Below are positions 16,900 to 63,736 of a stretch of DNA of 64,000 bases, piece by piece. The notes beneath the pieces were generated by a model, which searched no databases, had not been told where the DNA came from, and saw nothing but the letters and a program-made list of their open reading frames with translations. The DNA comes from Gigantopelta aegis (lineage: Eukaryota > Mollusca > Gastropoda > Neomphalida > Peltospiridae). Numbering within the stretch: the first letter of the stretch is position 1; each line of letters begins with the position of its first letter. Made by a program: the position numbers and the translations under genes. The stretch covers positions 54,582,009 to 54,646,008 of the forward strand of contig NC_054706.1 of assembly GCF_016097555.1 (NCBI RefSeq), given 5' to 3'.

Positions 16900-16953
16900 G
16901 TAACTGCCTGGGACACAACAGTATGCTTGGAAGAGCATTTCCAAGTAAACATT
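16900..16953 (+). CDS. Locus A exon, 54 bp, phase 1-1
   Basis: Acceptor TTTTATTTTTTAG and donor GTAAGT frame a 54-bp exon. Phase 1 reading: G-NCLGHNSMLGRAFPSKH-C, no stop. Two cysteines bracket the peptide. The splice signals are among the best in the window. Function unknown; it resembles the G/E-first exon class that ends on a split TGT codon. Confidence 0.5.
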
Positions 16954-16969
16954 GTAAGTTATTATTTTG

Positions 16970-17950
16970 TTAGTCTTACCGGTCCAACTGGAGGGGACTA
17001 TAGGTTTCATCTCCGTCCTTAAGTCCGTCCATCTGTCCCACATATATCTTTCCCAATGTTTTTTCCCACAGTGCCTTGAGATATTGTGTATACTTTTATC
17101 ATGTACTGTTAAGGTTTAGGGCCTCCAAAATAAAACTCAACCCGGACCCGAGTACCCGACACTTATAATGAGACTAAGGAATAAAGTAAAATAGGATTAT
17201 GCATCTTAATTCCAGTGAAAAACATGGATGCCTAAATCATGACATATATTCAACTTTTGTTTCCCCTCCATTAGGGTCTCCAAGAGTCCAAAATATTGGA
17301 CTTGAGTACGCGAGGGTCAAACTTGACCCGGACCCGAGTACCCGACACTAGATAATAATGAGACTAAGGAATAAAGTAGACTAGTATTATGGATCTTAAT
17401 TCCAATGCTGAATATGGATGCCAAATCATGCCATTGATACACTGGCCCATCATATTGCATTCCACACTGTGACATTTGGCTTTTCTTTTCCCTCTATGTC
17501 TCATAGCCCTGTAATATAACCAGCGGCAAGCATATATGGCAAAATGATGAAAATAAATAAATGAGTACTCTTCCTTGCACGGGTACTCAAGTCCTGTGAA
17601 TTTTGACTCTAGTCTAGCTAGACTCTGCCTGTGCTCGTGGAGACCCTATTACAAATCAAGTTTGACTTCCATGGCGATTTACCAATTTTTGACAGTTATG
17701 GCCCTTGAACTCAAGTGATAAGAAAATTAAACTTCTGGATGTTTTTGTTTTATAATGTCTTGAGATACTGACCTAAAAGTTTGGGTGTATCTTTATAAAT
17801 TAATAATAATGTTATGTACTGTTACAGATCAAGTTTTACTTTCATGGCGATTTACCCATTTTGACAGTTATGTCCCTTTAACTTAGTACATAAGAAAATT
17901 TGTTGGGCCTGGTAGTAGACCTGTATTGCAGTACTCACAGAATAATTGTT
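16970..17950 (+). repeat. Dispersed repeat R2 interrupted by a hAT-like element
   Basis: R2 blocks (GGACTATAGGTTTC, GTTTGACTTCCATGGCGATT) lie either side of the insertion at 17117-17648; the break falls at TACTGTTA|. Confidence 0.7.
17117..17648. mobile_element. hAT-like element with internal tandem duplication
   Basis: Ends TAGGGCCTCCA and TGGAGACCCTA are inverted. Inside, about 170 bp (CCGGACCCGAGTACCCGACA, AATGAGACTAAGGAATAAAG) is present twice. It interrupts repeat R2. The target duplication is decayed, so the superfamily is a guess. Confidence 0.55.
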
Positions 17951-18247
17951 TAACTGTTTAACTGCCATGTATATGTTTTGATTACTATGCTATTCAATGA
18001 TTTATTTATTTTTATTAATTAAAAAATATATTTTTTAAATTAATGTTCATCTTAACCTAATGTATATGTTTTAATCTTACTTGAATGTTTAACCGAATAT
18101 TTCCGGATATAGGTTTCAACGTGGCTTTTTATAATATCTATTAACCATTACCAGGGCTTTCTCAGTAATTTTTGTTTTATTTAGCCAGTTTTCAGATATG
18201 TAGAGTTTTTCCTTGAAAATTATTAAAATGTGGCTATTTTAAAGAAA

Positions 18248-18550
18248 GGGTCGGGATGTAGCCCAGTGCTAAAGCACTTGCTTGATGGGCAGTCAATTTG
18301 CAGGGGTCAATTTCTGTCGGTGAGTCCATTGGGCTATTTCTCGTTCCAGCCAGTGCACCACGACTGGTACATCAAAGATTGTGGTATGTGCTATCATGTG
18401 TGGGATGGTGCATATAAAAGATCTCTTGCTACTAATGGGGAGCAAGGTAGTAGATATCCTCTCTAAGACTATGTCAAAATTACCAAATAATTGACATCCA
18501 ATAGCTGATGATTAATAAATTAATGCGCTCTGGTGGTGATGTTTAAATTT
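18248..18550 (+). repeat. SINE, full length, tail type B
   Basis: Box A region GATGTAGCCCAGTGCTAAAG, the shared body and the type B tail (TGACATCCAATAGCTGATGA) are all present. Box B is diverged. Confidence 0.9.
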
Positions 18551-18680
18551 AAAGAAAATTGTTTTATCCAAAGACTGAATGTTGTAGCCACTTTGCATAA
18601 ATATTATCAATTGGCTGATTTGGCAGTGAACAGGGTGAGCCCTGTCTTACTTTAACTGTGGCACTTACTGCTGCTGTGAG

Positions 18681-19130
18681 GCAGGCTGTAGCTCAGTGGT
18701 ACAGCACTCGCCAGATGTGCTATCGAGTGGGCGGGACATAGCTCAGTGGTACAGCACTCGCCTGATGTGCGATCGAGTGGGCGGGTCATAGTCCAGTGGT
18801 ACAGCACTCGCCTGATGTGCTATTGAGTGGGCGGGACATAGCTCAGTGGTACAGCACTCGCCTGATGTGCTATCGAGTGGGCGGGTCATAGTCCAGTGGT
18901 ACAGCACTCGCCTGATGTGCTATCGAGTGGGCGGGACATAGCTCAGTGGTACATCACTCGCCTGATGTGCTATCGAGTGGGCGGGACATAGCTCAGTGGT
19001 ACAGCACTCGCCTGATGTGCTATCGAGTGGGCGGGACATAGCTCAGTGGTACAGCGCTCGCCTGATGTGCGATCGAGTGGGCGGGACATAGTCCAGTGGT
19101 ACAGCGCTCGCCTGATGTGCGATCGAGTGG
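18681..19130 (+). repeat. Nine tandem 50-bp copies of a SINE tRNA head (box A array)
   Basis: Nine 50-bp units start at 18681 and then every 50 bp to 19081. Each carries TAGCTCAGTGG or TAGTCCAGTGG (box A), ACAGCACTCGCCTGATGTGC and ATCGAGTGG. They lack box B. GACATAGCTCAG and GTCATAGTCCAG variants alternate in part, suggesting growth by two-unit steps. The array joins a SINE with both boxes at 19131. Confidence 0.95.
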
Positions 19131-19459
19131 GCGGGTCATAGTCCAGTGGTACAGCGCTCGCCTGATGTGCGATCGGTGTGGGATCGATCCCCCATTGGTG
19201 GGCCCATTGGGCTATTTCTCGCTCCAGTTAGTGCACCATGACTGGTATATCAAAGGCTGTGGTATGTGTTATCCTGTCTTTGGGATGGTGCATATAAAAG
19301 ATCCCTTGCTGCTAATCGAAAAGAGTAGCCCATGAAGTGGCGACAGCGGGTTTCTCTCTCAATATCTGTGTGGTCCTTAACCATATGTCTGACGCCATAT
19401 AACCCTAAATAAAATGTGTTGAGTGCATCGGTAAATAAAATATTTCCTTTCCTTTCCTT
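19131..19459 (+). repeat. SINE, full length, tail type A
   Basis: Box A TAGTCCAGTGG, box B GGATCGATCC, body, and the type A tail (TGTCTGACGCCATATAACCC, then TTTCCTTTCCTTTCC). It terminates the box A array. Confidence 0.95.
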
Positions 19460-19608
19460 ACTGCTGCTGAAATGGCTTCCAGGGGCATGAGTACTAAAAC
19501 GTTTGTTTTCATTTGTTTTGGCTGTGCCCGGCTCTATTTTCAAGTAATAATAAATTTAAATATTTAGGTCTTGAGTTTATTATTGAATTTTTTCCCCTCT
19601 AATTATAG

Positions 19609-19708
19609 CCTTATTAACCACACCAACAACCCTGCGCCTCTCCCCCCTCCCATCCTGTACACATCTGAGAATGTGCCCAAGACAGATGTACTTGAGCCTT
19701 CAGTGAAT
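19609..19708 (+). CDS. Possible proline-rich exon
   Basis: Acceptor CCTCTAATTATAG and donor GTAAGC bound 100 bp. The open reading contains LINHTNNPAPLPPPILYTSE and VPKTDVLEPSVN. It enters with one leading base and leaves in phase 0, unlike the other exons, so it would not join in frame to the next. It could belong to another gene or be chance. Confidence 0.3.
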
Positions 19709-20056
19709 GTAAGCATGTATCAAGTGGTTGATAAATTAAGTCAACACAAATAAACTTTGTTAACGTGGAATATGATTACAAATAAATAGATTAAGTAACA
19801 AATCATTATATATTAATGTTCTTTATTGGGTAGATTTTATGGCATGCACTGATATACATCACATAACTGGATGGTATTTTCTTCCGAACCATACTACATT
19901 AAAAACTTTTAAAAGAAGCAATAATTTAAAGATGTATTTGGTGTTAATTTTTATATATATATATTGTTAGCTAACGATTATGAAGCAATTACAATCATAT
20001 TTAACATATGCTCCAAATCATAGTTTGTGAATAAATAAATTAACATAACATTCGCA

Positions 20057-20170
20057 GGAGTACCATATGAAATTTATGAAACTCATTTGGGAATTGTTCC
20101 TACTCCCTAACTCGCTCGGGGAATGAAATAATTCCCAAACTCGTTTCATAAATTTAATACAGCACTCCCC
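20057..20170. repeat. Hairpin element H1, copy in unit A
   Basis: AAATTTATGAAACTCATTTG pairs with CAAACTCGTTTCATAAATTT, and GGGAATTGTT pairs imperfectly with AATAATTCCC, around a CTCGCTCGGGG loop. Copies lie at 23977-24090 and 28336-28450. Downstream all carry CCCATTGGTCC. Confidence 0.85.
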
Positions 20171-20572
20171 CTCATGCAATAAGTTATATATATAATTAAT
20201 TTGTCATTACATTCATTACAATATAACGTTATCCCATTGGTCCCAGTCCAGATGTAATATTATAACGTGACTTTGTTCATTTCTCAACGAATGTAAAAGT
20301 TACATCGTCAGGGAACATAATTTTATAGAGGCAAGTTGTCTTATTGCGCATTATTGTTTTTGGACCAAAAATAATTCAGAATAAAGTAACAAGTTTTAGT
20401 GTTATTATTAGCAAATATGATTCAAATTTAATTACTGATTTTTGTTGTTCATACCCTGATGAACGTAAAAGAAATAACAGACAATCCTTAAGGCTATTTT
20501 AAATTTGCTGTCCAATAATGTGATGTATATTATGCATAGAGTATTGAAAACCTATTTTATTGTTTATTCTAG

Positions 20573-20650
20573 ATTTACCTTACGATAGGGAAGATGAAGG
20601 CTTTTATGAGGAAGCCGAACCTATGGTGGCGAAAGCTACAGTTGGAAAAG
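20573..20650 (+). CDS. Locus A acidic exon, unit A (78 bp, phase 1-1)
   Basis: TTTATTCTAG|AT opens and AAAAG|GTAGTC closes the exon. Phase 1 reading begins D-LPYDREDEGFYEEAE and ends MVAKATVGK-G, rich in D/E. No signal peptide, membrane segment or known domain. Unit B holds a paralogue at 24501 differing at 9 of 78 bases (7 replacement, 2 silent), while the neighbouring intron bases differ at about 2%. A more distant paralogue is the 29331 exon. Function unknown. Confidence 0.6.
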
Positions 20651-20839
20651 GTAGTCTGTTGTAACAAGAACATTTTCTTGTCTTATCCTGTTATATGTAC
20701 CTCTATAATTAAAGCCATGTTTATTAATTCACCTTAGTTTAATATTTAGTTACTTTTACATTTATTCGTTATAAATAGTGGGGTGAAATTACTCACATTT
20801 GCTTTGAGGTCTGTTATTTCATATGTTTTTCTCAACTTT

Positions 20840-21136
20840 CTAGTACATCTATTCTTTCCCATTCACGAAACGGGATTTTGGGGGGTGGAGACAACTGCCC
20901 CTCTAGTGCTGGAGTGAAACCTCAAATTCGAGCAAAGAAGATAGAGATATTCTGGCAAAATATGCTAAACAGAGACCTTTTTACCATGTATTTCCATCAT
21001 TCTACCATCAAAATTAGTTGTAATCCATGTAAAACTGCATAGTGATTCATTTGCAGCCCTATATAGCTGTTTGGTAGCAATGCTAATGTGAATAAATGTT
21101 GTTATTCAGATTTAGGCAAAAACCAGCCTGCCCTCT

Positions 21137-21171
<35 letters not shown>

Positions 21172-21180
21172 TTACAAAAA
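20840..21180 (-). repeat. Dispersed repeat R3, copy 3, with poly-C
   Basis: Reverse complement of R3 (ATTAGTTGTAATCCATGTAA, ACCATGTATTTCCATCATTC). A run of about 30 C follows at 21140-21171. Confidence 0.75.
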
Positions 21181-21244
21181 TGGGAGGCCCATATATATGC
21201 CTATGCACCCATTCATGAACTTTGTGTATGCTGTCATAATATGC

Positions 21245-21745
21245 AGGCTTTTAGTCCCCTGCTTGGCCCATTCGGAGAGGAATATTATAGGTTTCGTCTG
21301 TCTATCTGTCCCACATCTACTTTTGTGGACCTTTTTTCACAATGCTTTAAGCTACCAAGCTGAACTATTTTGTATAGTTTTATCATACATGTATACTGTT
21401 ACAGATCACATTTGTATAGTTTTATCATACACTGTTACAGACCATGTTTGGCTTTTATGTCAATTTACACATTTTTCACATACTTATGACCCATGAATTT
21501 AGGAGATAAAAAAAGTTGTTTTCTATATACTTTTATTTCACGATGCCTCAATATATTGAGCTGACATTTTATATATAGCTTTATTATTTACTGTTACAGA
21601 TAAAGTTTGACTATTAAGGCAATTTACCCTTTTTTCACAGATTTATGGCTCTTGAAATTAGGCGATACTAAATTTAGTTTGGGCCCGGTAGGGGACATGT
21701 ATATATTGTTTTTAGCAGTACTCTCAGAATGCTTGTTACAACTTA
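21245..21745 (+). repeat. Dispersed repeat R2, unit A copy
   Basis: TTTTAGTCCCCTGCTTGGCC to GGGCCCGGTAGGGGACATGT. The site CTTATGAC at 21483-21490 is the empty counterpart of the MITE in unit B. Confidence 0.75.
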
Positions 21746-21749
21746 AATG

Positions 21750-22960: not shown

Positions 22961-22969
22961 TTATTTTAG

Positions 22970-23032
22970 ATTGTAATGAGCATTTCCAAGATCGTCCAGG
23001 ACATGATTTTCTGAAGTCAGATGATGAAGCAG
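22970..23032 (+). CDS. Locus A EHF exon, unit A (63 bp, phase 1-1)
   Basis: GTTTTATTTTAG|AT opens and GCAG|GTAAAC closes. Phase 1 reading: D-CNEHFQDRPGHDFLKSD then DEA-G. The C-x-EHF-x-D-x-PG pattern recurs in the exons at 27043, 31472 and (without the Cys) 62405 on the other strand. The adjacent intron start GTAAACAGTTTTATAACAGG matches that after 31531, proving descent by duplication. Function unknown. Confidence 0.6.
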
Positions 23033-24500: not shown

Positions 24501-24578
24501 ATTTTCCTTATGGTAGGGAAGATGAAGGCTTTTACAAGGAAGCCGAATGTATGGTGGCGAAAGCTGAAGTTGGAAAAG
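24501..24578 (+). CDS. Locus A acidic exon, unit B (78 bp, phase 1-1)
   Basis: Same borders as its unit A paralogue. Reading begins D-FPYGREDEGFYKEAE and ends CMVAKAEVGK-G; changes are L/F, D/G, E/K, P/C and T/E. It gains a cysteine. Flanking intron sequence is nearly unchanged, so change is concentrated in coding bases. Confidence 0.6.
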
Positions 24579-27042: not shown

Positions 27043-27105
27043 ATTGTAATGAGCATTTCCAAGATCGTCCACGACATGATGTTCTGAAGTCGGATGATGA
27101 AGCGG
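27043..27105 (+). CDS. Locus A EHF exon, unit B (63 bp, phase 1-1)
   Basis: Reading D-CNEHFQDRPRHDVLKSD then DEA-G. It differs from unit A by two replacements (G/R, F/V) and two silent changes. About 90 bp upstream are identical between units. Confidence 0.6.
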
Positions 27106-29330: not shown

Positions 29331-29411
29331 ATTCTATGTTTGATACTGAAGATGAAGACTATTCTGATGATGAACCATGGGCGAACTTTACTGATTGGAG
29401 TGATTCTGAAG
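29331..29411 (+). CDS. Locus A acidic exon, diverged unit C (81 bp, phase 1-1)
   Basis: TTTTCTTTGTAG|AT and TGAAG|GTAATG bound it. Reading begins D-SMFDTEDEDYSDDEPWANF and ends TDWSDSE-G. It is strongly acidic and keeps the DxxxDxEDE start of the unit A and B exons, 3 bp longer than them. Two tryptophans are new. Unknown function. Confidence 0.55.
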
Positions 29412-31471: not shown

Positions 31472-31531
31472 GTTTGAAATGCAAGGAACATTTTAATGAT
31501 CCACCAGGGAGTGTTGTTTGTTGCAGAGAAG
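31472..31531 (+). CDS. Locus A EHF exon, unit C (60 bp, phase 1-1)
   Basis: TTTATTTTAG|GT and GAAG|GTAAAC bound it. Reading: G-LKCKEHFNDPPGSVVCCRE-G. It keeps EHF-x-D-x-PG and has three cysteines, one of them at the conserved place two residues before the EHF. The - strand exon at 62337-62405 shares HF-x-x-PPGSVV with it, linking loci A and B. Confidence 0.6.
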
Positions 31532-32348: not shown

Positions 32349-33836
32349 TACTCTTCAACAAATGGGTTATAACTCCGATTTTATGTTTCCTACCGGTTCA
32401 TGCTTTGTGAATATAAGGTCATTGCATGTCCCAAACACATTCCCACGGTTACATTCGATAAAACGCAGCTACTGTACAATAAAGTTCCAAAATGTGAATA
32501 TTCGCAAAAACGCAGCCACGTGCAAACCATGTCACCACTGCACGTGCGTTGTCTGCACGTGCAACATGAACACCGACAGTATAAAAGTGCAGGGTGTTCG
32601 CTTGCCTGGCCTCTGTATCTGGCCGACAGTTGACAATCCAGGACATGCCACGTCTCAGTGAACCGCAGAGAAACAATGCCATCGGCCGACTAGACGCAGG
32701 CGAATCCAGAACGGCCGTTGCCAGAGCATTCCATGTGTCCCCAAGCACCATCTCCAGACTGTGGGACCGTTACCAGCAACATGGATCAACACGTGACCTC
32801 CCTAGATCCGGTCGACCACGGGTCACTACCCCCGGGCAGGACCGCTACATCCGGGTACGCCACCTTCGGGAACGATTGACTACTGCCACCTCCACAGCCG
32901 CAGCAAATACCAGGTTTGCGCAGGATATCCGACCAGACCGTACGGAACCGCCTACGTGAGGTAGGAATTCGTGCCAGACGTCCAGTTCGAGGTGTCATCT
33001 TAACACCACAACACCGTCGACTCCGACTGCAGTGGTGCCAGATTCATCGACAATGGCCTCAACTGCGATGGAGACAGGTGTGGTTCAGTGACGAGTCCCG
33101 ATTTCTGCTCCGACGTCATGATGGAAGATGTCGCGTGTATAGGCGTCGTGGTGAACGTTATGCGGCAAACTGCGTGCAGGAAGTGGACAGATTCGGCGGG
33201 GGTAGTGTCATGGTGTGGGCAGCCATCTCACACACTGGCAGAACTGACCTGGTCCACGTGCAGGGCAACCTGAATGCACAGGGCTACATTGACCAGATCC
33301 TCCGGCCACACATCGTTCCAGTTATGGCCAACGCCAACGCAGTGTTCCAACATGACAACGCCAGGCCTCACACAGCACGTCTCACAACGGCTTTCCTACA
33401 GAACAACAACATTAATGTCCTTCCTTGGCCATCGATATCACCGGATTTGAACCCAATTGAGCATCTATGGGACGAGTTGGACCGATGCCTCCGACAGCGA
33501 CAACCACAGCCCCAGACCCTGCCCGAGCTGGCAGCAGCCTTGCAGGCTGAGTGGGCCACCATCCCCCGGGACGTCATCCGTACTCTGGTTGCTTCAATGG
33601 GCAGGCGGTGCCAGGCAGTTGTCAACACACGCGGAGGCCACACCCGGTATTGACTCCAGATGACCTTGACCTTGGTGGTGTTTCCTACCACTTACTCACA
33701 ATGGACTAGAGTGAATTGTGAACAATCCTGCAACATTTGGTAATTATCGGACTCACCATTCAATAATTAAATCAATTCTCCAAATGTTACGACAATGTGG
33801 TTTTGCGTTTCTTCTTTTAAAGAGTATATTAACTGT
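32349..33836 (+). mobile_element. Tc1-like transposon, 1488 bp, TA target duplication
   Basis: Ends start TACTCTTCAA (left) and TACTCTTTAA (right, inverted), each flanked by TA (32347-32348 and 33837-33838). Arm 2 keeps the empty site with one TA (GGTCTTATATTAACTG read from the - strand near 63840). The transposase has one frameshift. Visible terminal inverted repeats are short, about 10 bp. Confidence 0.95.
32645..33653 (+). pseudogene. Tc1/mariner transposase (DD34E), one frameshift
   Basis: Cut-and-paste transposase of the IS630-Tc1-mariner group. From ATG at 32645 the N-terminal part reads MPRLSEPQRNNAIGRLDAGE and VSPSTISRLWDRYQQ, a helix-turn-helix DNA-binding region. Near 32915-32930 the frame shifts by one and continues ISDQTVRNRLREVG. 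The catalytic triad is visible: WFSDESRF (first Asp), FQHDNARPHTA (second Asp), and NPIEHLWD (Glu). Exactly 34 residues separate the second Asp and the Glu, the DD34E spacing of Tc1. The end GGHTRY is typical. Total length would be about 336 residues, normal for Tc1. With a single lesion, it was probably active not long ago. Confidence 0.95.
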
Positions 33837-33928: not shown

Positions 33929-33990
33929 AAACCTCTGTGATGTTTACATGTTATTCAAGAAACTTAATGCTGTTATGTATATTTTAAGAT
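33929..33990 (+). pseudogene. Decayed E-first exon of arm 1
   Basis: Acceptor TCTGATTTCAG is intact. Reading starts E-TSVMFTCYSRNLMLLCIF and hits a stop. The exon is 62 bp against 81 bp in arm 2, and the donor is ATAAGT where arm 2 has GTAAGT. So this copy cannot splice as its partner at 63656-63736 can. Confidence 0.75.
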
Positions 33991-34090: not shown

Positions 34091-34201
34091 GTACATTACT
34101 TCAGACGAACAAAACATTTTGTCCCCTGTACATTACTTCAGACGAACAAAACATTTTGTCCCCTGTACATTACTTCAGACGAACAAAACATTTTGTCCCC
34201 T
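34091..34201 (+). repeat. 37-bp tandem repeat, three copies
   Basis: GTACATTACTTCAGACGAAC plus AAAACATTTTGTCCCCT three times, starting 34091, 34128 and 34165. Arm 2 has one copy near 63524. Confidence 0.95.
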
Positions 34202-34847
34202 CAAGGAAAGAAAATGTTTTGTTATAATTGCTGCAGTGCACTCTGCTATATTCAGTAATGTTGTTTGCAAACTGACTTACCTCAAGGAAGGAAAATGTTT
34301 TGTTATAATTGCTGCAGTGCACTCTGCTATATTCAGTAATGTTGTTTGCAAACTGACTTACCTCAAGGAAGGAAAATGTTTTGTTATAATTGCTGCAGTG
34401 CACTCTGCTATATTCAGTAATGTTGTTTGCAAACTGACTTACCTCAAGGAAGGAAAATGTTTTGTTATAATTGCTGCAGTGCACTCTGCTATATTCAGTA
34501 ATGTTGTTTGCAAACTGACTTACCTCAAGGAAGGAAAATGTTTTGTTATAATTGCTGCAGTGCACTCTGCTATATTCAGTAATGTTGTTTGCAAACTGAC
34601 TTACCTCAAGGAAGGAAAATGTTTTGTTATAATTGCTGCAGTGCACTCTGCTATATTCAGTAATGTTGTTTGCAAACTGACTTACCTCAAGGAAGGAAAA
34701 TGTTTTGTTATAATTGCTGCAGTGCACTCTGCTATATTCAGTAATGTTGTTTGCAAACTGACTTACCTCAAGGAAGGAAAATGTTTTGTTATAATTGCTG
34801 CAGTGCACTCTGCTATATTCAGTAATGTTGTTTGCAAACTGACTTAG
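34200..34847 (+). repeat. 81-bp tandem repeat, eight near-identical copies
   Basis: Units begin CTCAAGGAAGGAAAATG and contain GCTGCAGTGCACTCTGC; each is exactly 81 bp (34200, 34281, 34362 and so on). Because 81 is a multiple of three, stop-free frames of 226-252 codons exist on both strands, but they are period artefacts. Arm 2 has a single unit at about 63443-63520. Confidence 0.95.
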
Positions 34848-39040: not shown

Positions 39041-39130
39041 AAAACTCTATTTTAATTGTGGTGAAAAACAATCTTTATTTTAATAAAGATATTACGGTAT
39101 ATAGAGATATTGGCAAAAAAGTGCTTACAC
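39041..39130 (+). CDS. Locus A E-first exon, arm 1 (90 bp, phase 1-1)
   Basis: GTTTCTGTTTCAG|AA and ACAC|GTGAGT bound it. Reading: E-NSILIVVKNNLYFNKDITV then YRDIGKKVLT-R. No cysteine; basic and aliphatic. Its arm 2 partner (61082-61171) differs at 10 of 90 bases, 7 of them replacements, and has lost the donor. Function unknown. Confidence 0.55.
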
Positions 39131-39202
39131 GTGAGTGGATATTTTGTTTATTTTGTTAGTTAACAGAGTTGTAGAAAGTACTTTTTAATTTTATAAAAAA
39201 AA

Positions 39203-40369: not shown

Positions 40370-40569
40370 NNNNNNNNNNNNNNNNNNNNNNNNNNNNNNN
40401 NNNNNNNNNNNNNNNNNNNNNNNNNNNNNNNNNNNNNNNNNNNNNNNNNNNNNNNNNNNNNNNNNNNNNNNNNNNNNNNNNNNNNNNNNNNNNNNNNNNN
40501 NNNNNNNNNNNNNNNNNNNNNNNNNNNNNNNNNNNNNNNNNNNNNNNNNNNNNNNNNNNNNNNNNNNNN
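40370..40569. other. Assembly gap (200 N)
   Basis: Exactly 200 unknown bases. The 1.18-kb direct duplication starts right after it, so the local order may be wrong. Confidence 0.99.
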
Positions 40570-40763
40570 AAAATTTTAAGTAAAATTTTCACTCAAGATC
40601 TGTATGATTAAGTGTAATTTCATTATAATTATATAAAGTAGTGACAGTATTTTTGTATGTGAAAAATATTTGTGTATTAATTCCATAATCATCATGGGTA
40701 TGGCTACCTAGTAGTGTAGATGTGTTTAATGAAAAATAGTTATGTTTAGTTTTATTATTACAG

Positions 40764-40859
40764 GTAGTACTAAACCAAATAACTTCCGGCTGGGTCAAAG
40801 TTCGAGGTGCACTGAACTAAGAGAAGTGAACACCACAAGTCCTGTGATTGGTGATAAAT
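40764..40859 (+). CDS. Locus A G-first exon, copy 1 (96 bp, phase 1-1)
   Basis: TTATTATTACAG|GT and AAAT|GTGAGT bound it. Reading: G-STKPNNFRLGQSSRCTELR then EVNTTSPVIGDK-C. Basic, with one internal cysteine and one on the split last codon. An identical copy is at 42840. The E/G-first class with a terminal split TGT also includes 16900 and 57239. Confidence 0.5.
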
Positions 40860-41287
40860 GTGAGTGTGTTGGCTGTAAAAAAAAAACAAGAAGTTTCATC
40901 TGGGCAAAAAATGTATTCAATTTTATTTAATCTGGTACCACTGTGTCAAGTAGCCTTGTGCTTGAAACATGTATGGGGTACCTGTACAAAAAAGTACTCA
41001 AATTTTGTGCGGAACTAGGGTAGTCATAGACGCTACCCGTTATCTCAGAAATGAGCAGCTTGACCCCCAATTTTTTGCCAATTCACTTTAAGGGTGGGGG
41101 TGGTAGTATTTATACTGACTGATACACTGCAGGTAGGAGTTTTAGCCACATGTTACTATTGTTGTCTATGGGATTGGATTTGGTAATTTACACCCTACAT
41201 TGTTTACTCCATTATATGTCAGGACTGGAGCAGCGTTTTGAATATGGGGGAGAGGAATGGATGTATAACGACACCCCAGCACAAAAG

Positions 41288-41572
41288 GAAGGAAATGTTT
41301 TATTTAACAACACACTCAACACATTTTGTTTGCGGTTATATGGCGTCGGAGATATGGTTATGTACCACGCAGATATCACGCTGTCGCCACTTCATGAACT
41401 ACTCTTTTAGATTAGCAGCAAGGGTTCTTTTATATGCACCATCCCACAGACAGGATACTACATTCCACGGACTTTGTTACACCAGTTGTGGAGCACTGGC
41501 TGGAATGAGAAATAGCCTCATGGGCCCACAGACAGGAATCGATCCTACCACTGGGCTACATCCCTCCCCCCA
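41288..41572 (-). repeat. SINE, tail type A, copy 1 of duplication
   Basis: GGAAGGAAATGTTTTATTTA to CCACTGGGCTACATCCCTCC, with part of the box B region deleted. Confidence 0.9.
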
Positions 41573-42144
41573 CCCCAGCAAAAAAATACTCATGGGCTAT
41601 TGGGTGTCACAAATATATGAAAATATTATTTATATAATTATGTAAAACCACAGTGTAAGGAGCTGTGGAGAAAGGTACAATGCAATACAAATATCATGGT
41701 AAGTATATTTTGTATAGAAATCACAGTATTTTAAAAACTTTAAAATTAATTCAAGGTGGAATTTAAAAGATTTCAAATATTTCTGTTGCCAAATATATCA
41801 TTTCTGCACCGTCCCAATCATCTTGCTAAGTCGAAAAGATATATTGGTTAATATGATATTTAAAATCACTGTAGAGAACACCAACACCGACATGAGGCAA
41901 ATTCAAAGCAGACTTGGCAGCAACATCTGCCTTTTCAACAGAAATGTATAAGTTATAAATTGTATATAAATTGCAATTTTATACTAAATTTGCGACTAAT
42001 ACATCAAAAGCCACACTGTCCAATTAGAATAGAGTAATTCATATAATGGCTGAACGTTTGTAATTATATTTACATAGGATATAACATGTAATGGTTCACA
42101 CAGGTAATGGGAATGCATACTATTCACATTATAAAACAGTATAC

Positions 42145-42213
42145 CTCCTATGTCTTCAATTTTTATAGGCACCTCACTGGACTCTATAGCTTCACAGGCA
42201 CCAGGATCCCAGT
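42145..42213 (-). CDS. D-W exon on the - strand (69 bp, phase 1-1)
   Basis: On the - strand GTTATTTTTAG|AC opens and GGAG|GTATAC closes it. Reading: D-WDPGACEAIESSEVPIKIE then DIG-G. The D-W start and acidic character match locus B D-first exons (47933, 55928). It lies beyond the locus B terminal exon and between the two direct-duplication copies, so it may be a stray exon copy. Confidence 0.4.
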
Positions 42214-42356
42214 CTAAAAATAACATTTATCAAAAACTGAGTATACTGTATATTTATAAAATATTAGGCCCTATAGACCCTTCTCATAATAGGGCACTTT
42301 TCATGCGGCGAGAATCAGAACTACAGACTTGTGACATTGGGGAAAGGGGGAGGGGG

Positions 42357-42500
42357 GAGAATTTTTTTTATTTAACGAAACACTCAACACATTTTATTTA
42401 CGGTTATATGGCATCAGACATATGGTTTAGGACCACACAGACCAAACCGACCGCGCATCAAGCGAGTGCTTTACCACTGGGCTATGTCCCACCCCTCACA
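42357..42500 (-). repeat. SINE with internal deletion, tail type A
   Basis: The tail (TTTATTTAACGAAACACTCA) joins directly to the tRNA head (CCGACCGCGCATCAAGCGAG) at 42441; the body is deleted. Confidence 0.85.
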
Positions 42501-42839
42501 GGGGGATGTGTGAACAGAAACACTGCGAACAGAAAGAATGTTTTTCCTGCTACACAAGAATGCATGGCTTATTTGATGCATACATGTATATGTATAGTTA
42601 ACATAAAATCATTAACAAATTAATGATATACAACACTAACAACTGAACATTTTAAGTAAAATTTTCACTCAAGATCTGTATGATTAAGTGTAATTTCATT
42701 ATAATTATATAAAGTAGCGACAGTATTTTTGTATGTGAAAAATATTTGTGTATTAATTCCATAATCATCATGGGTATGGCTACCTAGTAGTGTAGATGTG
42801 TTTAATGAAAAATAGTTATGTTTAGTTTTATTATTACAG

Positions 42840-42935
42840 GTAGTACTAAACCAAATAACTTCCGGCTGGGTCAAAGTTCGAGGTGCACTGAACTAAGAGA
42901 AGTGAACACCACAAGTCCTGTGATTGGTGATAAAT
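42840..42935 (+). CDS. Locus A G-first exon, copy 2 (96 bp, phase 1-1)
   Basis: Identical to the exon at 40764-40859, with the same splice sites. If the duplication is real, both could be spliced in frame because the exon is phase-symmetric. Confidence 0.45.
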
Positions 42936-43364
42936 GTGAGTGTGTTGGCTGTAAAAAAAAAACAAGAAGTTTCATCTGGGCAAAAAATGTATTCAATTTT
43001 ATTTAATCTGGTACCACTGTGTCAAGTAGCCTTGTGCTTGAAACATGTATGGGGTACCTGTACAAAAAAGTACTCAAATTTTGTGCGGAACTAGGGTAGT
43101 CATAGACGCTACCCGTTATCTCAGAAATGAGCAGCTTGACCCCCAATTTTTTGCCAATTCACTTTAAGGGTGAGGGGTGGTAGTATTTATACTGACTGAT
43201 ACACTGCAGGTAGGAGTTTTAGCCACATGTTACTATTGTTGTCTATGGGATTGGATTTGGTAATTTACACCCTACATTGTTTACTCCATTATATGTCAGG
43301 ACTGGAGCAGCGTTTTGAATATGGGGGAGAGGAATGGATGTATAACGACACCCCAGCACAAAAG

Positions 43365-43649
43365 GAAGGAAATGTTTTATTTAACAACACACTCAACACA
43401 TTTTGTTTGCGGTTATATGGCGTCGGAGATATGGTTATGTACCACGCAGATATCACGCTGTCGCCACTTCATGAACTACTCTTTTAGATTAGCAGCAAGG
43501 GTTCTTTTATATGCACCATCCCACAGACAGGATACTACATTCCACGGACTTTGTTACACCAGTTGTGGAGCACTGGCTGGAATGAGAAATAGCCTCATGG
43601 GCCCACAGACAGGAATCGATCCTACCACTGGGCTACATCCCTCCCCCCA
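43365..43649 (-). repeat. SINE, tail type A, copy 2 of duplication
   Basis: Same SINE as 41288-41572, carried by the duplication. Confidence 0.9.
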
Positions 43650-43827
43650 CCCCAGCAAAAAAATACTCATGGGCTATTGGGTGTCACAAATATATGAAAA
43701 TATTATTTATATAATTATGTAAAACCACAGTGTAAGGAGCTGTGGAGAAAGGTACAATGCAATACAAATATCATGGTAAGTATATTTTGTATAGAAATCA
43801 CAGTATTTTAAAAACTTTAAAATTAAG

Positions 43828-47855: not shown

Positions 47856-47933
47856 CTGTTACATCTACTTTCATCACCATGGCTCCAGTTGGAATCATAT
47901 TGCGGTTTATATCTTCAGAACAGAAGAACCAAT
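47856..47933 (-). CDS. Locus B D-W exon (78 bp, phase 1-1)
   Basis: TTTATTTCAG|AT and ACAG|GTATGC on the - strand. Reading: D-WFFCSEDINRNMIPTGAMV then MKVDVT-G. It shares the D-W start and G end with 55928-55848. One cysteine. Penultimate exon of the model. Confidence 0.6.
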
Positions 47934-52792: not shown

Positions 52793-52903
52793 GGTTATTA
52801 ATAGTAGTTTCATTATTTATATCCACAATGCATCCAGTGATACTTTCTTGAAAACAAGTTATGTTTCGTGATCTCAATATGCCTACTGATCCCAGACAGA
52901 GTT
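52793..52903 (-). CDS. Locus B E-first exon (111 bp, phase 1-1)
   Basis: GTTCTTATTTCAG|AA and AACC|GTAAGT on the - strand. Reading E-LCLGSVGILRSRNITCFQE then SITGCIVDINNETTINN-R. It is the same length as the exon at 57239-57129 and 11 of 38 residues match, including CF, S, V-x-INN. Three cysteines. N-x-S/T sites (NIT, NET) would be glycosylation sequons if secreted, which is not shown. Confidence 0.65.
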
Positions 52904-55300: not shown

Positions 55301-55314
55301 GAAACAGAACTTAC

Positions 55315-55353
55315 CTTCCCGCTGCTTGACACTTGTACCCGTGAACAACCGAT
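55315..55353 (-). CDS. Locus B short exon (39 bp, phase 1-1)
   Basis: GTTTTATTTTAG|AT and GAAG|GTAAGT on the - strand. Reading D-RLFTGTSVKQRE-G. Strong splice sites at both ends; short, so somewhat less certain. Confidence 0.5.
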
Positions 55354-55847: not shown

Positions 55848-55928
55848 CTGATACATTTTGTAATATTGATTGTATACTTCTCAAAATGATATCATGGGGC
55901 CGTTTGCCGTTGTAATCAATCAACCAAT
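55848..55928 (-). CDS. Locus B D-W exon (81 bp, phase 1-1)
   Basis: CATTTTAG|AT and TCAG|GTATGC on the - strand. Reading D-WLIDYNGKRPHDIILRSI then QSILQNVS-G. Same D-W ... G frame as 47933. No cysteine. Confidence 0.6.
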
Positions 55929-56170: not shown

Positions 56171-56408
56171 CTGTTTTGTTTAACGACCCCTCTAGAGCAC
56201 ATTGATTTATTAATCATTGGCAAGTGGATGTCAAACAATTGGTAATTTTGACATATAATCCAAGAAAGGAAACCCACCACATTTTCCCACTAGTAGCAAG
56301 GGATCTTTTATATGCACCATCCCACAGATAGGATAGCACATACCACAGCCTTTGACATACCACAGCCTTTGACATACCAGTCGTCGTGCATTAGCTGGAG
56401 TGAGAACT
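56171..56408 (-). repeat. SINE, tail type B, head missing
   Basis: GTTTTGTTTAACGACCCCTC through GTCGTGCATTAGCTGGAGTG. A 17-bp segment (ACATACCACAGCCTTTG type) is tandemly doubled at 56345-56375. Confidence 0.9.
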
Positions 56409-57128: not shown

Positions 57129-57239
57129 ATGAATTCCATATTTTACTATTATTAATTTCAACATGGCTGTCAATGAGGCTTTTTTTAAAACACACCACAC
57201 TCTGAGAATCATTGACATATAGAGGTCCTGCCCTATATT
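57129..57239 (-). CDS. Locus B E-first exon (111 bp, phase 1-1)
   Basis: GTTGTTTCAG|AA and TCAT|GTAAGT on the - strand. Reading E-YRAGPLYVNDSQSVVCFKK then SLIDSHVEINNSKIWNS-C. Paralogue of the 52903-52793 exon with identical length. It ends on a split TGT cysteine. Confidence 0.65.
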
Positions 57240-57346: not shown

Positions 57347-57394
57347 CTGACAAGAGAAAGCTTAAAAGTCACAATGCTTTGTTGTTTGTTTGCC

Positions 57395-57875: not shown

Positions 57876-57954
57876 AGTATTGGGAAACATTCAAGTCAAA
57901 CTTATTATACCAGTTGTAATATTAATTTACATCATTATAAATATATGAATGTAC

Positions 57955-58035
57955 CTGAAATACTTCGACCAATTGTAATTAGATAGTCACCTGGAATTTT
58001 CAAGTATAATCTTTGTTCAAACATGAAAAAAGCAC
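57955..58035 (-). CDS. Locus B G-first exon (81 bp, phase 1-1)
   Basis: CTTTATTTCAG|GT and TCAG|GTACAT on the - strand. Reading G-AFFMFEQRLYLKIPGDYLI then TIGRSIS-G. Same length as 55928-55848 and also ends S-G. Hydrophobic but with charges, no clear membrane span. Confidence 0.6.
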
Positions 58036-58564
58036 CTGAAATAAAGAAAAAAAAGAGTAAAATGTATATATGCATATGTGTGTGCGTGCGTGTGTTTCTA
58101 TCTATATATTTCTATTACTCCTGTTTTTGTACACATCAACCTAGCAAGGCCAGTGGTTGCAAAACAAGGCGTCGCATGCGACGTTTACTACCCTCATTTC
58201 CGACGTCTATTTTTGCCACAGTTGCTTAGACTCCAGTTCATATTTTCTTGGTTCTTGTCTGAATGTAGAGCTCGGTTTCTATTTGTTAATTTCATCAGGA
58301 AAACTTTGAGTTTCCCACGAATACAACGTCCATTATTGCTCATTGCCTTTGTTTTTAAAATATATTTTGTTTTGATTCATGAGCAGAGTAGACCCAGTGA
58401 GTTTCTGCGACCGCGGAAAACGGACGGAATTCCCATTGTGAAACGGAATTTACATTTGGAAACGGAATTACAATTTCCGCGAAGTTAAAAATTATTAATT
58501 TATTATTTTACTATTGCCACACGCTGTAAAACTGACGATTGACCTGTAAGCAGTACTATTAGTA

Positions 58565-58960
58565 TTGGCAAATGCTAGACTGGATTATGCGCTTCACGGT
58601 AAACCAAATGGTCACATTGGGAACCAATCAAATACTTCGCGAACATTGGCGAAACGTTTGCTGACTGAACTTGGGGCTGGTTTACTGCTTATTCTGTTGC
58701 GCCTGCGCAGATGGGACAGGTTTTTTTCCAGGAGTAAGTTTAGCCAGCGGTTTGTCGCTAACTCTTGTCTTGGAAGACAGATTTTTACGCTACACATTAA
58801 ACCGAATGACCATTTCGGGAACCACCAGTCAAAATATGTTTGTAAATGTTTAGCAAAAAATGGCTGGCTGAACGTTGCAGTGTTACTTTATTTCCGCTGT
58901 GTCATGCGCATACTTCAATTTGCAGGCGTTCAACTGTCAGAGATGATAAAATAAATGTTT
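58565..58960 (+). repeat. Dispersed repeat R4, longest copy
   Basis: CACGGTAAACCAAATGGTCA, TCAAATACTTCGCGAAC and CCAGCGGTTTGTCGCTAACT recur at 0.56, 9.46 and 49.29 kb. The open frame across it is not supported as coding. Confidence 0.65.
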
Positions 58961-58969
58961 ACCTTTTTT

Positions 58970-59490
58970 GAACCCTAAGCCCCGTTGAATACAGCAGTGC
59001 ACTTAATTGTTGGACAATCATGCCTGATGTAGTTATTATAATTGTAGTCTTTGCTCCTGATGTGATTTTTCGCTACTAATATGTAGGCTTACTTTGATTT
59101 AATGACAAATAGCGACGCATGTCGACGCCAGTCAATTTTCGGACCCTTTAATTTGTCACAACTTGTGTTAGTTCAACTGTTAATTACATATTGTAGTCTG
59201 AAACGGAAATGAAATGGAATTTACAAAAACATGAAATGGAAAATAGCTCTTTTTTAATGGAAAACCACTGAGTCATACTTGTTCTATTCATGGGCCAACA
59301 ATTTCACCAACTATATGCATTACAAATGAACTACATTGCACACTTCTGTGGTAACAGACTCCGGCCCAGAGAGACACCCCCCCCCCCCATCCCCCGCGTG
59401 CCCCAATTATTGAGTGACTGTAGCTCTCGATAAACCCCCAAATCCTACTCTGTCAGTTCCAACGCCTACTAGTACTTCGTTTTGCAACCG
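58970..59490. other. No gene seen
   Basis: Spacer between R4 and the inner edge of inverted arm 2, with a C-rich tract at 59378-59390. Confidence 0.45.
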
Positions 59491-59663
59491 CTGAAGGCTT
59501 TTGCAGTATGACATTTGTACAAGATATGTGACATCATTCTTTGTTAAGCACTAGCTACATTTTGTCACATTAAAATGGTGTTTATAAACTATATAATTCC
59601 TAAATATACACATTTTGTATCGTTATCGTGACACAAAACCTTATTTGTATACACTGTACTGAA

Positions 59664-60563
59664 GTGTCTGATTCAAAGAGCATGTTTATTGAAAATCTAG
59701 TCTGAAATACTCAAGTCAAGTCAGGCTTATATGTCACACGACCTATAATTTTGATCAGTGACCGAAATATAGAAATTTATCTCGTCATAATGTCTCACTT
59801 AGTTTAGGCCAAAACAACACACCGAAACTGGGTCTGGGGAGTCTGATGCTGTCAAAATACAGATCATGCTCTATCTATATCATTTACTGCCAGATATGTA
59901 CATGTAGTTTGTGCCAGCAAAGATGAGGTGTGTTTTGTCACATTTAGTTCAGGGTGTTTCCTTTTCAAATGGTACCATATATTCACCAGACCCAGACACA
60001 TCTCCAGTGTGTTTTGGGCCCAATTTCTACAATTTAAGTTATAATTTGTAAGTTATACATTATATTATATTGATATTCAAAATACCTAAAATAAACCAAG
60101 ATTTATTTTTTAATCTTTTTGTTGTGAGCATGTGCAAAATGTTTTGCCAAACCTACATGTAATTAGACTTAACCAAAAAAATAACCTTAACCAGGGGTGC
60201 AGAAATTAAAAATATTTCACTAGCTCCCTGGACTAGAACCAACCAAAATTTACTAGCCAGCCAGACTTTCTACTAGTCCATCAGCCAATAGAATATATTA
60301 TTGTTTAACAATATTATAATATACTCTGTCTTCACTTTAAATAATATATATATATTCTTTCTTATTTTTTGACACAAAAATAAGGACACTTGGTAAGTGA
60401 TTAACATCATGTAGTAAACAAAAACAAGACCCAAACCTTGACTGACAAATCAATACATTTTGAAATACTCTGGCAAATATTAAGTTTTTCAATTTTCTTT
60501 TATACAGATTTACAAAATTCAACAGACATCCCAAAAGTGTTTAACAAAACAATCTATTCAGAA
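59664..60563. other. 900-bp segment present only in arm 2
   Basis: Lies between TGTACTGAA and CAGAACACACC, which are adjacent in arm 1. Either an insertion here or a deletion there. No coding signal; CTGGACTAGAACCAACC and ACTAGTCCATCAGCCAATAG near 60225-60295 hint at a repeat. Confidence 0.6.
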
Positions 60564-60698
60564 CACACCACAGATTCAATGCAAAAAACTAAATATATAT
60601 CTAAAAAATTAAATTACAGTCAGTCAGAAAAAGACAGATCACCCGTTGGACTGGTCAGAATTTTTACTAGCATTTGGCAATCAGGCGAGTACTTTCTG

Positions 60699-61029
60699 GT
60701 GGCAGGACGTTGCCCAATGGTAAAGCGTTCACTTAATTTGCGGTCGGTCTAGGATCAATCCCCATCGGTGGACCCATTGGGTTATTTCTCGTTCCAGCCA
60801 GTGCTCCACAACTGGTGTAACAAAGGCTGTGGTATGTACTATCCTGTCTGTGGGATGGTGCATATAAAAGATCCCTTACTGCTAATCAAAAAGAGTAGCC
60901 CATGAAGTGGCAGCGGTGTATTTCCTCTCTCAGTATCTGCATGGTCCTTAACCATATGTCCGACGCTATATAACCGTAAATAACATGTGTTGAGTGCGTT
61001 GTTAAATTAAAAACATAAATAAATTAAAA
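60699..61029 (+). repeat. SINE, full length, tail type A, 11-bp TSD
   Basis: AGTACTTTCTG flanks at 60688-60698 and 61030-61040. Same ancestral insertion as 39203-39510 in arm 1. Confidence 0.95.
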
Positions 61030-61081
61030 AGTACTTTCTGCAGCTCTGTTAACTAACAAAATAAGCAAAATATTCACTCAT

Positions 61082-61171
61082 GTGTAAGCACTTTTTTGAA
61101 AATATCTCTGTATACTGTAACATTTTTATTAGAATAAAGATTGTTTTTCACCAACATTAAAATGGAGTTTT
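61082..61171 (-). pseudogene. Locus B E-first exon with lost donor, arm 2
   Basis: Partner of 39041-39130, also 90 bp and open: E-NSILMLVKNNLYSNKNVTV then YRDIFKKVLT. The acceptor is intact, but the donor reads ATGAGT where arm 1 has GTGAGT. It probably cannot be spliced normally, unless another GT is used. Confidence 0.65.
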
Positions 61172-61499
61172 CTGAAATAGAAACATATAATTAATAGTTA
61201 GGGTTGTGATTTGAGGAAAGTTAGTTATAGAATAATGTACACAACTAACAAAATAAAAAAGAACTTAATTTATTCAATTTATTATTAAAAAAAATTGAGA
61301 CTATTTTTAAAAATTATTATTCCTTTTATTTTCCTTGTTATAAAAATGTCATACAGAGGTTTTTCTTCACCCATGTGATGAGTTGTTTCTCTCATGTTTA
61401 TGAAGTTTAGTGTTCATGGCTCAAGATAAAAAGTATTCAAATGCCACCACCATGATACACTATATTTAGCAAATATCATATTTTACTGTTGGTTTATAT

Positions 61500-62330
61500 T
61501 AAAATTTTATTCCTGATATATATACATGTATATATATATATGGCATATCTGTAATATTATTAACTTATAAAGTTGTTTGAAATGATGTAACATCATGTAG
61601 AATTTCAATATTGTACATGTTTGAGTTACTGTGTTGGAAAAAGGAAGCATGCTTTTGATGGTTGGCATCTACTTATATATTAATAATGAATTGATCATAG
61701 TTTCACTGTACTTTATTTGCCTGGTAGACTATGATCACCAACCTCATTACACTCCAACCCTTGTCATCATTACATTTAACATTAATGACATTCTTTGAGC
61801 TGAAGTATGTATGACATTGTACTCTTACGACCATTGGTTATCAAAAAATCACAAAAAATAATCTGACATAATTCCTCAAATTCACAGATATTGTCACAAA
61901 TAAATGTTTAAAGTTGTGAAAAGTTAGTTGAAATTCTTTCCTGGACAGGAGATCTGGCACAAATCTGAACTCGTGCCCAGGATGGACGTGCCTAAACCTT
62001 CAGTGCATATGGGCACGTTAACAGAGTTTTCCTTCCTTAGTTCAAAATGTATGGTAGTGTTGATAAAACAGAAACATTGCTTTACTCACAAATGGGCTTG
62101 TCGTGTTTAAGGGCAACAGTCTTTCAAATGCATTTTGTTACCAAAAAAAACCCCACACAGATATTTCATCATACTAACAAACGAAACATCAATACAGAAC
62201 ATTCTACTGGAAATTGAAAATCATCTCATTGGTCGTTTGAAGAATTACATTAAATAAATGCCAGTACTAGAGTGGTTTAATAGCTAATGGTCAAAATAAC
62301 CAAACGAAGAAACTTCTCTGTTATCAGACT
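61500..62330. other. No gene seen
   Basis: Arm 2-only sequence, AT-rich. The phrase GATGGACGTGCCTAAACCTT near 61980 echoes GGGCGTGCCTGAACCTTAGT at 361, so it may be a diverged dispersed repeat. Confidence 0.35.
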
Positions 62331-62336
62331 GCTTAC

Positions 62337-62405
62337 CTCTGTCATAATCTCTCCAACGAACAACACTCCCTGGTGGGTGATGAAAATGTTTCTTGTATTC
62401 AACAT
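62337..62405 (-). CDS. Locus B HF-PPGSVV exon (69 bp, phase 1-1)
   Basis: TTTATTTTAG|AT and AGAG|GTAAGC on the - strand. Reading D-VEYKKHFHHPPGSVVRWRD then YDR-G. It shares HF-x-x-PPGSVV with the locus A unit C exon (31472) and HF with the unit A and B exons, so loci A and B are paralogous. It lacks the cysteine of the A exons. Confidence 0.65.
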
Positions 62406-62573
62406 CTAAAATAAATGAAATGTTTTAAAATTCTAATCATACTGACATTTTGAACTGAAAGCCAAAGGCATAGCATGTGTATTAGGGCTTAAGCTGGACA
62501 ACAAAACTAATTATTATAATTACGGTAAGTCCATGTAATTAATCTACTGTATAGCCATGCCACATGGATATAT

Positions 62574-62950
62574 AGAGGATACTCCCCGAGTGTCTTGTGA
62601 TATCATAATTTATCAGCACGAGTTGATAAAAGTATGAAATCTGAGCATTGCCGAGGATTTTATACTTTTATCAACTAGTGCTGATAAATTATGATATCAC
62701 AAGACACAAGGGGGTATTCTTTTTATCATCCATTATCATTCTTTTCATTTGCGACAATTGTAAACAACGTCAGTAATGTGGGTTGAATGTCAGCGGTAGA
62801 CTCGTTAACTAGCAGAACAGCAGTGGCGTGACGTCACTAATGGTAGGTTTAGTGCTGAAACAAACACACAGTGATGTAACAAAACATTTGTCTTGTGATT
62901 AAAATTTGACCAATCAGGAGATATCGCAAATTATAGTGCCAGCGATATCT
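62574..62950. mobile_element. Hairpin element H3
   Basis: TCTTGTGATATCATAATTTA, TCAGCACGAGTTGATAAAAG pair with their complements up to 62706, around GAGCATTGCCGAGG. A second palindrome GGAGATATCGC / GCGATATCTCC lies at 62917-62953. Both flanks carry TTTATCATCCATTA / TAATGGATGATAAA. Same design as H1 and H2 but a different sequence. Confidence 0.75.
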
Positions 62951-63442
62951 CCTATAAAAGCCTTTAATGGATGATAAATATAGTGTGATCTGTAAATGTG
63001 GCAATTCATTAAATAAATAATTAAAAAACCAAAAAAAAACCCAACACCAACCACAAAAAACTAATGAGCTATTTTGCGAGTTTTGTAAAAAAATCTTTCG
63101 TCAAATGCTAGTTTCAGTTGGCCAAATAAAATATAACCAAATTTGTAAAAGAAATCTAATAGGAGATGGTCTGTATGAATTACAAATATGTGCAAGCAGG
63201 TGAACGGATTAAATAAATAGCAAGCTGTTCAAATCAGTGGTAGATCTACAAATGATACACAATTTTCAAATTAGTTTTGGGGACAATTATTGCATTTCTG
63301 GATTTAATTTGGCAAACTCTGCATCACGTAATATATAATAATTATATTCTTTACTAAAATTATATCTAAATACTATAATATGTAAGTCCTTTTTAACATC
63401 ATTTCTCCACTTTTGATCTGCACTGCAAACACCCAGTTTAGA

Positions 63443-63561
63443 AAGTTTGTTTGCAAACAACATTACTGAATATAGCAGAGTGCACTGCAGCAATTATAAC
63501 AAAACCATTTGCCTTCTTTCAGGGGACAAAAATTTGTGTTCGTCTGAAGTAATGTACAATG
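63443..63561 (-). repeat. Single copies of the 81-bp and 37-bp units
   Basis: GTTTGCAAACAACATTACTG and AGTGCACTGCAGCAATTATA match one 81-bp unit; TTCGTCTGAAGTAATGTAC matches one 37-bp unit. This is the unamplified state. Confidence 0.9.
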
Positions 63562-63655
63562 TCCAAATTAATCAATGTTTTCTGTAATCCTACTGTTGAA
63601 GACTCATATGCAAAAAGAATTAAATTTTTTCAAAAAAATCCCACGAAATACTTAC

Positions 63656-63736
63656 ATTTCAAAATATACTTCAATGCAATAACTGCATAAAGTCCGACCA
63701 AGTTTCTTGAAGAACACTTAATCATCACAGAGTTTT
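63656..63736 (-). CDS. Locus B E-first exon (81 bp, phase 1-1)
   Basis: GTTCTGATTTCAG|AA and AAAT|GTAAGT on the - strand. Reading E-NSVMIKCSSRNLVGLYAVI then ALKYILK-C. Intact partner of the broken exon at 33929 in arm 1. Begins E-N-S like 39041 and 61171. Furthest upstream locus B exon in the window. Confidence 0.6.

Follow-up and report, generated by a model that had tools for sequence, protein, structure and literature searches.

A probable orphan gene family built of small symmetric exons, with two convergent members, in the vent snail Gigantopelta aegis

Gene architectures based on symmetric exons are best known from the micro-exon genes (MEGs) of schistosomes, whose proteins carry an N-terminal signal peptide. 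Runs of short symmetric phase 1-1 exons, in variable number, are also found in titin PEVK and similar proteins. PMC8293314 describes the symmetric exons of MEGs as at most 36 bp long, seemingly restricted to schistosomes, and open to removal or duplication without a shift of frame, and links one exon duplication to a transposable element. Here, we analyzed a stretch of 64,000 nucleotides (hereafter the window; C8:54582009-54646008) of chromosome C8 of Gigantopelta aegis, a peltospirid snail of hydrothermal vents with two bacterial endosymbionts, as described in PMC7895826. As judged from sequence comparisons and gene models, the window probably contains two convergent, inverted paralogues of a protein-coding orphan family of about five loci, made of symmetric phase 1-1 exons.

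MEGs are lineage-restricted and consist mainly of symmetric exons, and it is this symmetry that the G. aegis genes have in common with them. There are several differences. Most of the coding sequence of a MEG lies in exons of at most 36 bp, whereas the 19 segments described below have 39-111 bp. No sequence similarity was found, the word-based protein search having returned only G. aegis proteins. With regard to the signal peptide, simple hydropathy, used without a dedicated predictor, shows no signal-like start: within the first 30 residues, the most hydrophobic 15-residue stretch reaches 0.29, 0.77, 0.11, and 0.15 in the RefSeq proteins that we call P0001 to P0004, none of which is strongly hydrophobic on this simple measure. 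With regard to alternative splicing of the small exons, the name of P0001, "isoform X2", implies another isoform. The family works like a coarser version of the MEGs and is not a member of them. With titin PEVK it shares the strings of short phase 1-1 exons, but titin is giant and conserved whereas these are whole, small orphan genes.

The gene structures were deduced by matching RefSeq protein sequences to the DNA of the window, exon by exon (exon names and coordinates in Table 1). The spliced plus-strand peptide (locus L1) matched P0003, P0001, and P0004 (LOC121379727), and is 100% identical to P0003 (LOC121378310, 202 residues). Its chain comprises M0 (ATG at 10007), P16, A1, B1, A2, B2, A3, B3, and E39, which runs to a TAG at 39157. 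The spliced minus-strand peptide (L2) matched P0001 and P0002 (LOC121379726), and the product of this locus is P0001 (uncharacterized protein LOC121380107 isoform X2, 417 residues). The chain of P0001 starts to the right of the window with M0, P16, A, B, A3, and B3 (78507-66641 on the window scale) and continues within it through E63, B4, E61, M58 (with a nearer donor), E57, a repeat-derived exon (56406-56344), M55b, E52, M47, and M42, the last of which reads through to a stop at 41998-41996. L1 and L2 are convergent, with final exons ~2.8 kb apart. The models that have a start (L1, L2, and L4, see below) open with a short first exon coding for M(T)SQA, followed by a string of small phase 1-1 exons, and the introns between small exons span ~0.7-7.5 kb. 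Model proteins have 173-417 residues, and the models come with a start exon and stops of their own. The RefSeq entries of the four genes are single uncharacterized proteins lacking a Pfam domain, and a literature search on the four LOC names matched no paper in the library searched. Immune-related expansions have been reported in G. aegis, and the sections of PMC7736800 that report them do not mention these genes.

An earlier note, made from the letters of the window, had proposed two loci consisting almost entirely of such exons and listed 19 of them. All 19 segments are bounded by AG and GT, have lengths of 39-111 bp that are multiples of three, and are free of stops in phase 1-1. P0001 and P0003 together cover 16 of them (8 of 10 on the plus strand, 8 of 9 on the minus strand), and to this extent the proposal stands. 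The other three, S40 (40764), S42 (42840), and M55a (55928), are in no model seen, and two of the 19 are terminal: the segments at 39041 and 42213 are not phase 1-1 exons in the RefSeq models, where each forms the final exon and continues to a stop. The segment at 58035 is used in P0001, but with a nearer donor (45 bp). The list had left out the start exon (9969-10019), the exon at 61171-61082, and the repeat-derived one at 56406-56344.

Because the segments had been picked for their phase, the argument from uniform phase was circular, and the scan was repeated blind to phase. We used the repeat-masked window, generic splice matrices (consensus values), and 60 order-1 simulations. At the strict threshold, there are 17 open 1-1 segments against 1.0 ± 0.9 in the simulations (maximum 4), and at the loose one 30 against 3.2 ± 2.1 (maximum 9). 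AG..GT segments of all kinds are about doubled (35 vs 15.2 strict, 98 vs 50.6 loose). Other phase classes are also raised, namely 0-0 (6 vs 1.0 strict, 15 vs 3.9 loose), 2-2 (3 vs 1.2 and 11 vs 3.8), and, at the loose threshold, 1-0 (10 vs 3.4). Part of this excess comes from segments with a second open frame and from the double counting of duplicated exons. On the strength of the scan and of the RefSeq proteins, we reject a chance origin of the phase 1-1 segments, as the note had done.

We then consider the relatives of these genes within the genome. When P0001 was compared with the whole genome, its best 30 matches (E up to 0.0031) were all on C8 at 54.60-54.94 Mb; 100 of the 1208 first-look candidates were scored, and weak copies may be missed. 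The strong matches fall into a single cluster of ~350 kb that comprises about five paralogous loci: L1 is the plus strand of the window, L2 its minus strand and beyond, and the others are L3, L4, and L5. The two loci of the earlier note are indeed convergent and annotated genes, but they are inverted paralogues and part of a larger cluster. We catalogued exon copies by DNA similarity (19 exon queries, E up to 0.01) over 54.532-54.696 and 54.876-54.966 Mb, the intervening 180 kb lying outside. Of 56 rows, four S-unit rows and two duplicates were set aside, leaving 50 copies in five loci (the two 75-bp M55b copies were judged from two rows each). Phase and borders, on which the note had staked its proposal, are conserved: 44 of the 50 copies are divisible by three in length and open in phase 1, and E61 is the sole one of these without AG..GT. 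The remaining six comprise the relic of E63 in L1, M58 and an A3-flank relic in L3, M47 in L5, and the M0 copies of L3 and L4, whose changes fall upstream of the ATG.

Exon number and order differ between loci, which directly shows that exons have been gained, lost, and changed in frame. L1 reads P16-A-B-A-B-A3-B3-E39, L2 reads P16-A-B-A3-B3-E63-B4-E61-M58-E57-..., and L4 reads P16-B-A-B-A3-B3-E57-M55a-M55b-E52-M47, such that the orders differ among P0001, P0003, and P0004. The idea that the protein changes length by gain and loss of exons is borne out by their A and B parts (A-B-A-B-A3-B3, A-B-A3-B3, and B-A-B-A3-B3). Since the exons share one phase, the gain or loss of a whole exon is frame-neutral. 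Exons also change length in frame between loci (P16, 54/42 bp; M55b, 39/75; E52, 111/108), and no copy of E63, B4, E61, M58, or M42 was found in L4. P0002 spans L4 exons, an additional 60-bp exon V, and then M55b of L5. The region C8:54885625-54942477 is an apparent single transcription unit (L4 and part of L5) that RefSeq splits into LOC121379727 and LOC121379726, and the protein start of the latter sits in intron sequence upstream of the M55b acceptor.

Table 1. Exons and related segments in the window (window coordinates)
Feature	Position	Strand	Remarks
M0, L1 start exon	9969..10019	+	ATG 10007, peptide MSQA, donor GTAAGT; P0003 begins MSQAGNCLG; AG/GT, open frame
P16, 54 bp, phase 1-1	16900..16953	+	in P0003; paralogues 54, 54, 42 bp
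A1, 78 bp	20573..20650	+	in P0003
B1, 63 bp	22970..23032	+	in P0003
A2, 78 bp, tandem copy of A1	24501..24578	+	~3.9 kb tandem duplication; in P0003
B2, 63 bp, tandem copy of B1	27043..27105	+	in P0003
A3, 81 bp, acidic-aromatic core exon	29331..29411	+	in P0003; 1-3 substitutions/81 among L1, L2, L4
B3, 60 bp, core exon	31472..31531	+	in P0003; 0-1 substitutions/60 among L1, L2, L4
Dead E63 relic, 62 bp	33929..33990	+	frameshift, in-frame stop, donor lost (ATAAGT for GTAAGT)
E39, L1 terminal exon in RefSeq	39041..39159	+	P0003 residues 164-202; TAG 39157-39159; good donor also at 39131
S40, open in phase 1-1	40764..40859	+	repeated unit by 200-N gap; in no model seen
S42, copy of S40	42840..42935	+	repeated unit; in no model seen
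M42, L2 terminal exon	41996..42213	-	P0001 residues 346-417 at 100%; stop 41998-41996
M47, 78 bp	47856..47933	-	in P0001
E52, 111 bp	52793..52903	-	in P0001
M55b, 39 bp (75 bp in L4, L5)	55315..55353	-	P0001 residues 270-282
M55a, 81 bp, candidate alternative exon	55848..55928	-	in no model seen; intact with both splice sites in L4
Repeat-derived exon, 63 bp, phase 1-1	56344..56406	-	P0001 residues 250-269 at 100%; similar peptides dispersed genome-wide
E57, 111 bp	57129..57239	-	in P0001
M58	57955..58035	-	model takes nearer donor (58035-57991, 45 bp); P0001 AFFMFEQRLYLKIP then EYRAG
E61, 90 bp, paralogue of E39	61082..61171	-	donor AT not GT, yet P0001 splices exactly there
B4, 69 bp	62337..62405	-	in P0001
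E63, 81 bp	63656..63736	-	in P0001; L2 runs on rightward beyond window

Are these genes translated? It is somewhat unlikely, in our view, that the exons are real but belong to a spliced, largely non-coding or decaying transcript cluster, whose proteins are frames picked by the annotation program. Such a cluster would fit the broken copies (the E63 relic in L1, M58 in L3, M47 in L5), the annotated ends that run past donor-like sites (39041, 42213), the lack of any homologue or domain, a rate of nonsynonymous change close to that of introns, and the weakness of the conservative frameshift test. It fits poorly with the comparison of L2 and L4, where all 10 shared internal exons are intact and the only three indels (12, 36, and 3 bp) are multiples of three. 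Over these 756 bp, 2.3-7.4 frameshifts are expected by conservative counting and 17 by loose counting, together with about two stops, and none of either was observed. The loose test (P 6e-9) is inflated by loose gap counting, and the conservative one is preferred. Between L2 and L3, 2.8-4.8 frameshifts are expected and there are none in the six intact shared exons (the broken M58 was excluded). A3 and B3 are constrained, with a divergence of 5/282 vs 159/2788 in flanking introns (Fisher p = 0.003, for exons chosen after seeing the data), and a single phase is kept across exon types of many lengths.

The following results weigh against a family of coding genes. With the shortest, 150-bp flanks, the P of zero frameshifts between L2 and L4 is just 0.04-0.1, and between L1 and L2 it is 0.15-0.33 at every conservative setting (1.1-1.9 expected, zero observed). 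Exons are not significantly less divergent than introns in L2-L4 (47/741 vs 536/6501, p = 0.07) or L1-L2 (14/336 vs 176/3647, p = 0.69). The intact paralogue pairs with alignable flanks, which are not independent of each other, give pooled nonsynonymous (pN) and synonymous (pS) divergences of 0.083 and 0.134, compared with 0.075 in introns; as pN is near the intron rate, the greater part of the sequence evolves almost neutrally. The AT donor of E61 is either a variant base of the assembly or a non-consensus intron. L4 is divided between two RefSeq models, exon copies were located by similarity so that decayed ones may escape, the AlphaFold predictions are uninformative (predicted local distance difference test scores of 30 and 35), and the function considered below is drawn solely from composition.

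The reading as a protein-coding family draws together the exon-by-exon match of RefSeq proteins, the 17 segments of the phase-blind scan vs 1.0, the 44 of 50 copies in frame, the exclusively in-frame indels between L2 and L4, the constraint on A3 and B3, the acidity of the protein head (see below), and the differing exon orders. We read the proteins as translated but apparently weakly constrained and fast-changing, with a constrained A3-B3 core. The case for positive selection on the tandem copies A1 and A2 is suggestive at best. They differ at 9 of 78 sites (7 nonsynonymous, 2 synonymous), compared with 8 of 399 sites within 200 bp to either side. Flanks of 400 bp give p = 0.008, and 14% of the 78-column windows in the duplicated block are equally divergent.

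The family has, as far as searched, no relative outside the species. None was found beyond G. aegis among 5.8 billion proteins by a word-based search, which is confined to proteins that share 5-residue words with the query and have 0.55-1.75 times its length, so that a distant relative could escape. A profile search with P0001-P0004 returned only those four. The suggestion of an undescribed, lineage-specific family holds within the searched databases, where it is confined to G. aegis, and its scope is bounded by the protein database and the word-based search. Pfam gave nothing for the joined peptides, P0001, P0003, and P0004, and one weak match for P0002 (E 0.0096, below its cut-off), in agreement with the note, which had recognised no known domain. 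The best matches among solved structures (E 0.1 to 1.2) are not credible. In the window, Rfam had no hit at the gathering score and ARAGORN none. The protein, domain, and structure searches bear on whether the genes belong to some large, known protein rich in symmetric exons, e.g. of muscle or matrix, that evolved past recognition. Strings of phase 1-1 exons are known from such proteins, but here start exon and stops are the models' own, at modest length, and neither Pfam (above its cut-off), nor solved structures, nor the protein search disclosed a link, which makes this origin very improbable. We give next to no credence to the exons being carried by dispersed repeats rather than by a gene family, for although the exon at 56406-56344 comes from a dispersed repeat, the S40/S42 pair, spaced ~2.1 kb, is found again near L3, and the window is repeat-rich, the best 30 matches of P0001 are confined to the cluster and the weaker ones elsewhere overlap the repeat-derived exon, except on C3819 (residues 282-331, two stops, E 0.04). 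The genome search refutes a dispersed-repeat origin for the main exons, and it stands for the repeat-derived exon only.

Several exons may share an ancestry. The donors of B, B3, B4, M42, M55a, and V (6 of 16, grouped by eye) have the intron stretch +7 to +22 in common, about TGTTTTATAANAG. Identities over these 16 positions are 13 for B3/M42, 12 for M42/V and B/B3, 11 for B/M42 and B3/B4, and 10 for M42/M55a, against a null with mean 4.4 and 99.9% point 11. Some pairs inside the group are lower (B4/M42 8, B4/M55a 5), M47 is outside it, and E39/E57 (11) and P16/E39 (10) hint at another such group. B, B3, and B4 have a short peptide motif in common, and M42, M55a, and V look unrelated to those by eye. 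The stretch may reflect either descent from one ancestral exon, with more rapid divergence of the coding parts than of the intron next to them, or a splicing element. The repeat-derived exon, presumably from a short interspersed nuclear element (SINE), is not an insertion specific to L2, since its flanking block aligns to L4.

Other repeats were observed in the window. Two copies of a 1.2 kb unit, 99.7% identical and spaced 2.1 kb (40570-43826), hold S40 and S42, and the first of them directly follows a 200-N gap (40370-40569). That these are an assembly artefact beside the gap is doubtful, given a similar pair near C8:54676300-54678900, close to L3, with 96% identity over 465 bp and a spacing of ~2.1 kb; it lies on the strand opposite to the L3 gene. 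An 81-bp unit that matches the intron beside E63 (63443-63523) is repeated in tandem at 34199-34846, in eight nearly identical copies, as a local amplification adjoining the dead E63 relic. Overlapping open reading frames at 32594-33653 (plus strand) resemble, by eye, a broken transposase of the Tc1/mariner type, and a 50-bp tandem array at 18689-19175 looks like the tRNA-like head of what is presumably a SINE, one that is abundant in the window.

The loci differ by duplication of the A-B exon pair, loss or decay of single exons, in-frame length change, and, in one model, a repeat-derived exon. The head (P16-A-B-A3-B3) has an isoelectric point of about 4.4 and the L2 tail is basic (8.5); A3 contains, among 27 residues, 12 D/E, 5 aromatic, and no K/R. 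Our best guess, from this composition alone, is that the product may be a fast-evolving, acidic, disordered intracellular adaptor with acidic-aromatic motifs. It would be soluble, in keeping with the lack of a signal-like start; within its acidic head, A3-B3 would be the constrained binding part, while the tail of exon cassettes would vary freely. It would most likely use short acidic-aromatic motifs to act on a partner undergoing rapid change of its own, which may, as a guess, be related to immunity or symbiosis.

One may go further and ask if this mollusc independently evolved a system like that of the MEGs, in which two alternating, duplicated phase 1-1 exon types have coding parts that diverge faster than the donor-side intron, and a protein at the interface with symbionts or pathogens is diversified by splicing and by the gain and loss of exons. 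We regard this as quite unlikely on present evidence. If the proteins are made, this vent snail would have an orphan family with the architecture best known from schistosome MEGs. It lies in one cluster, with paralogues young enough for introns and exons to be aligned base by base, such that the duplication of symmetric exons, the recruitment of a repeat, changes in length, and exon death can be watched directly.

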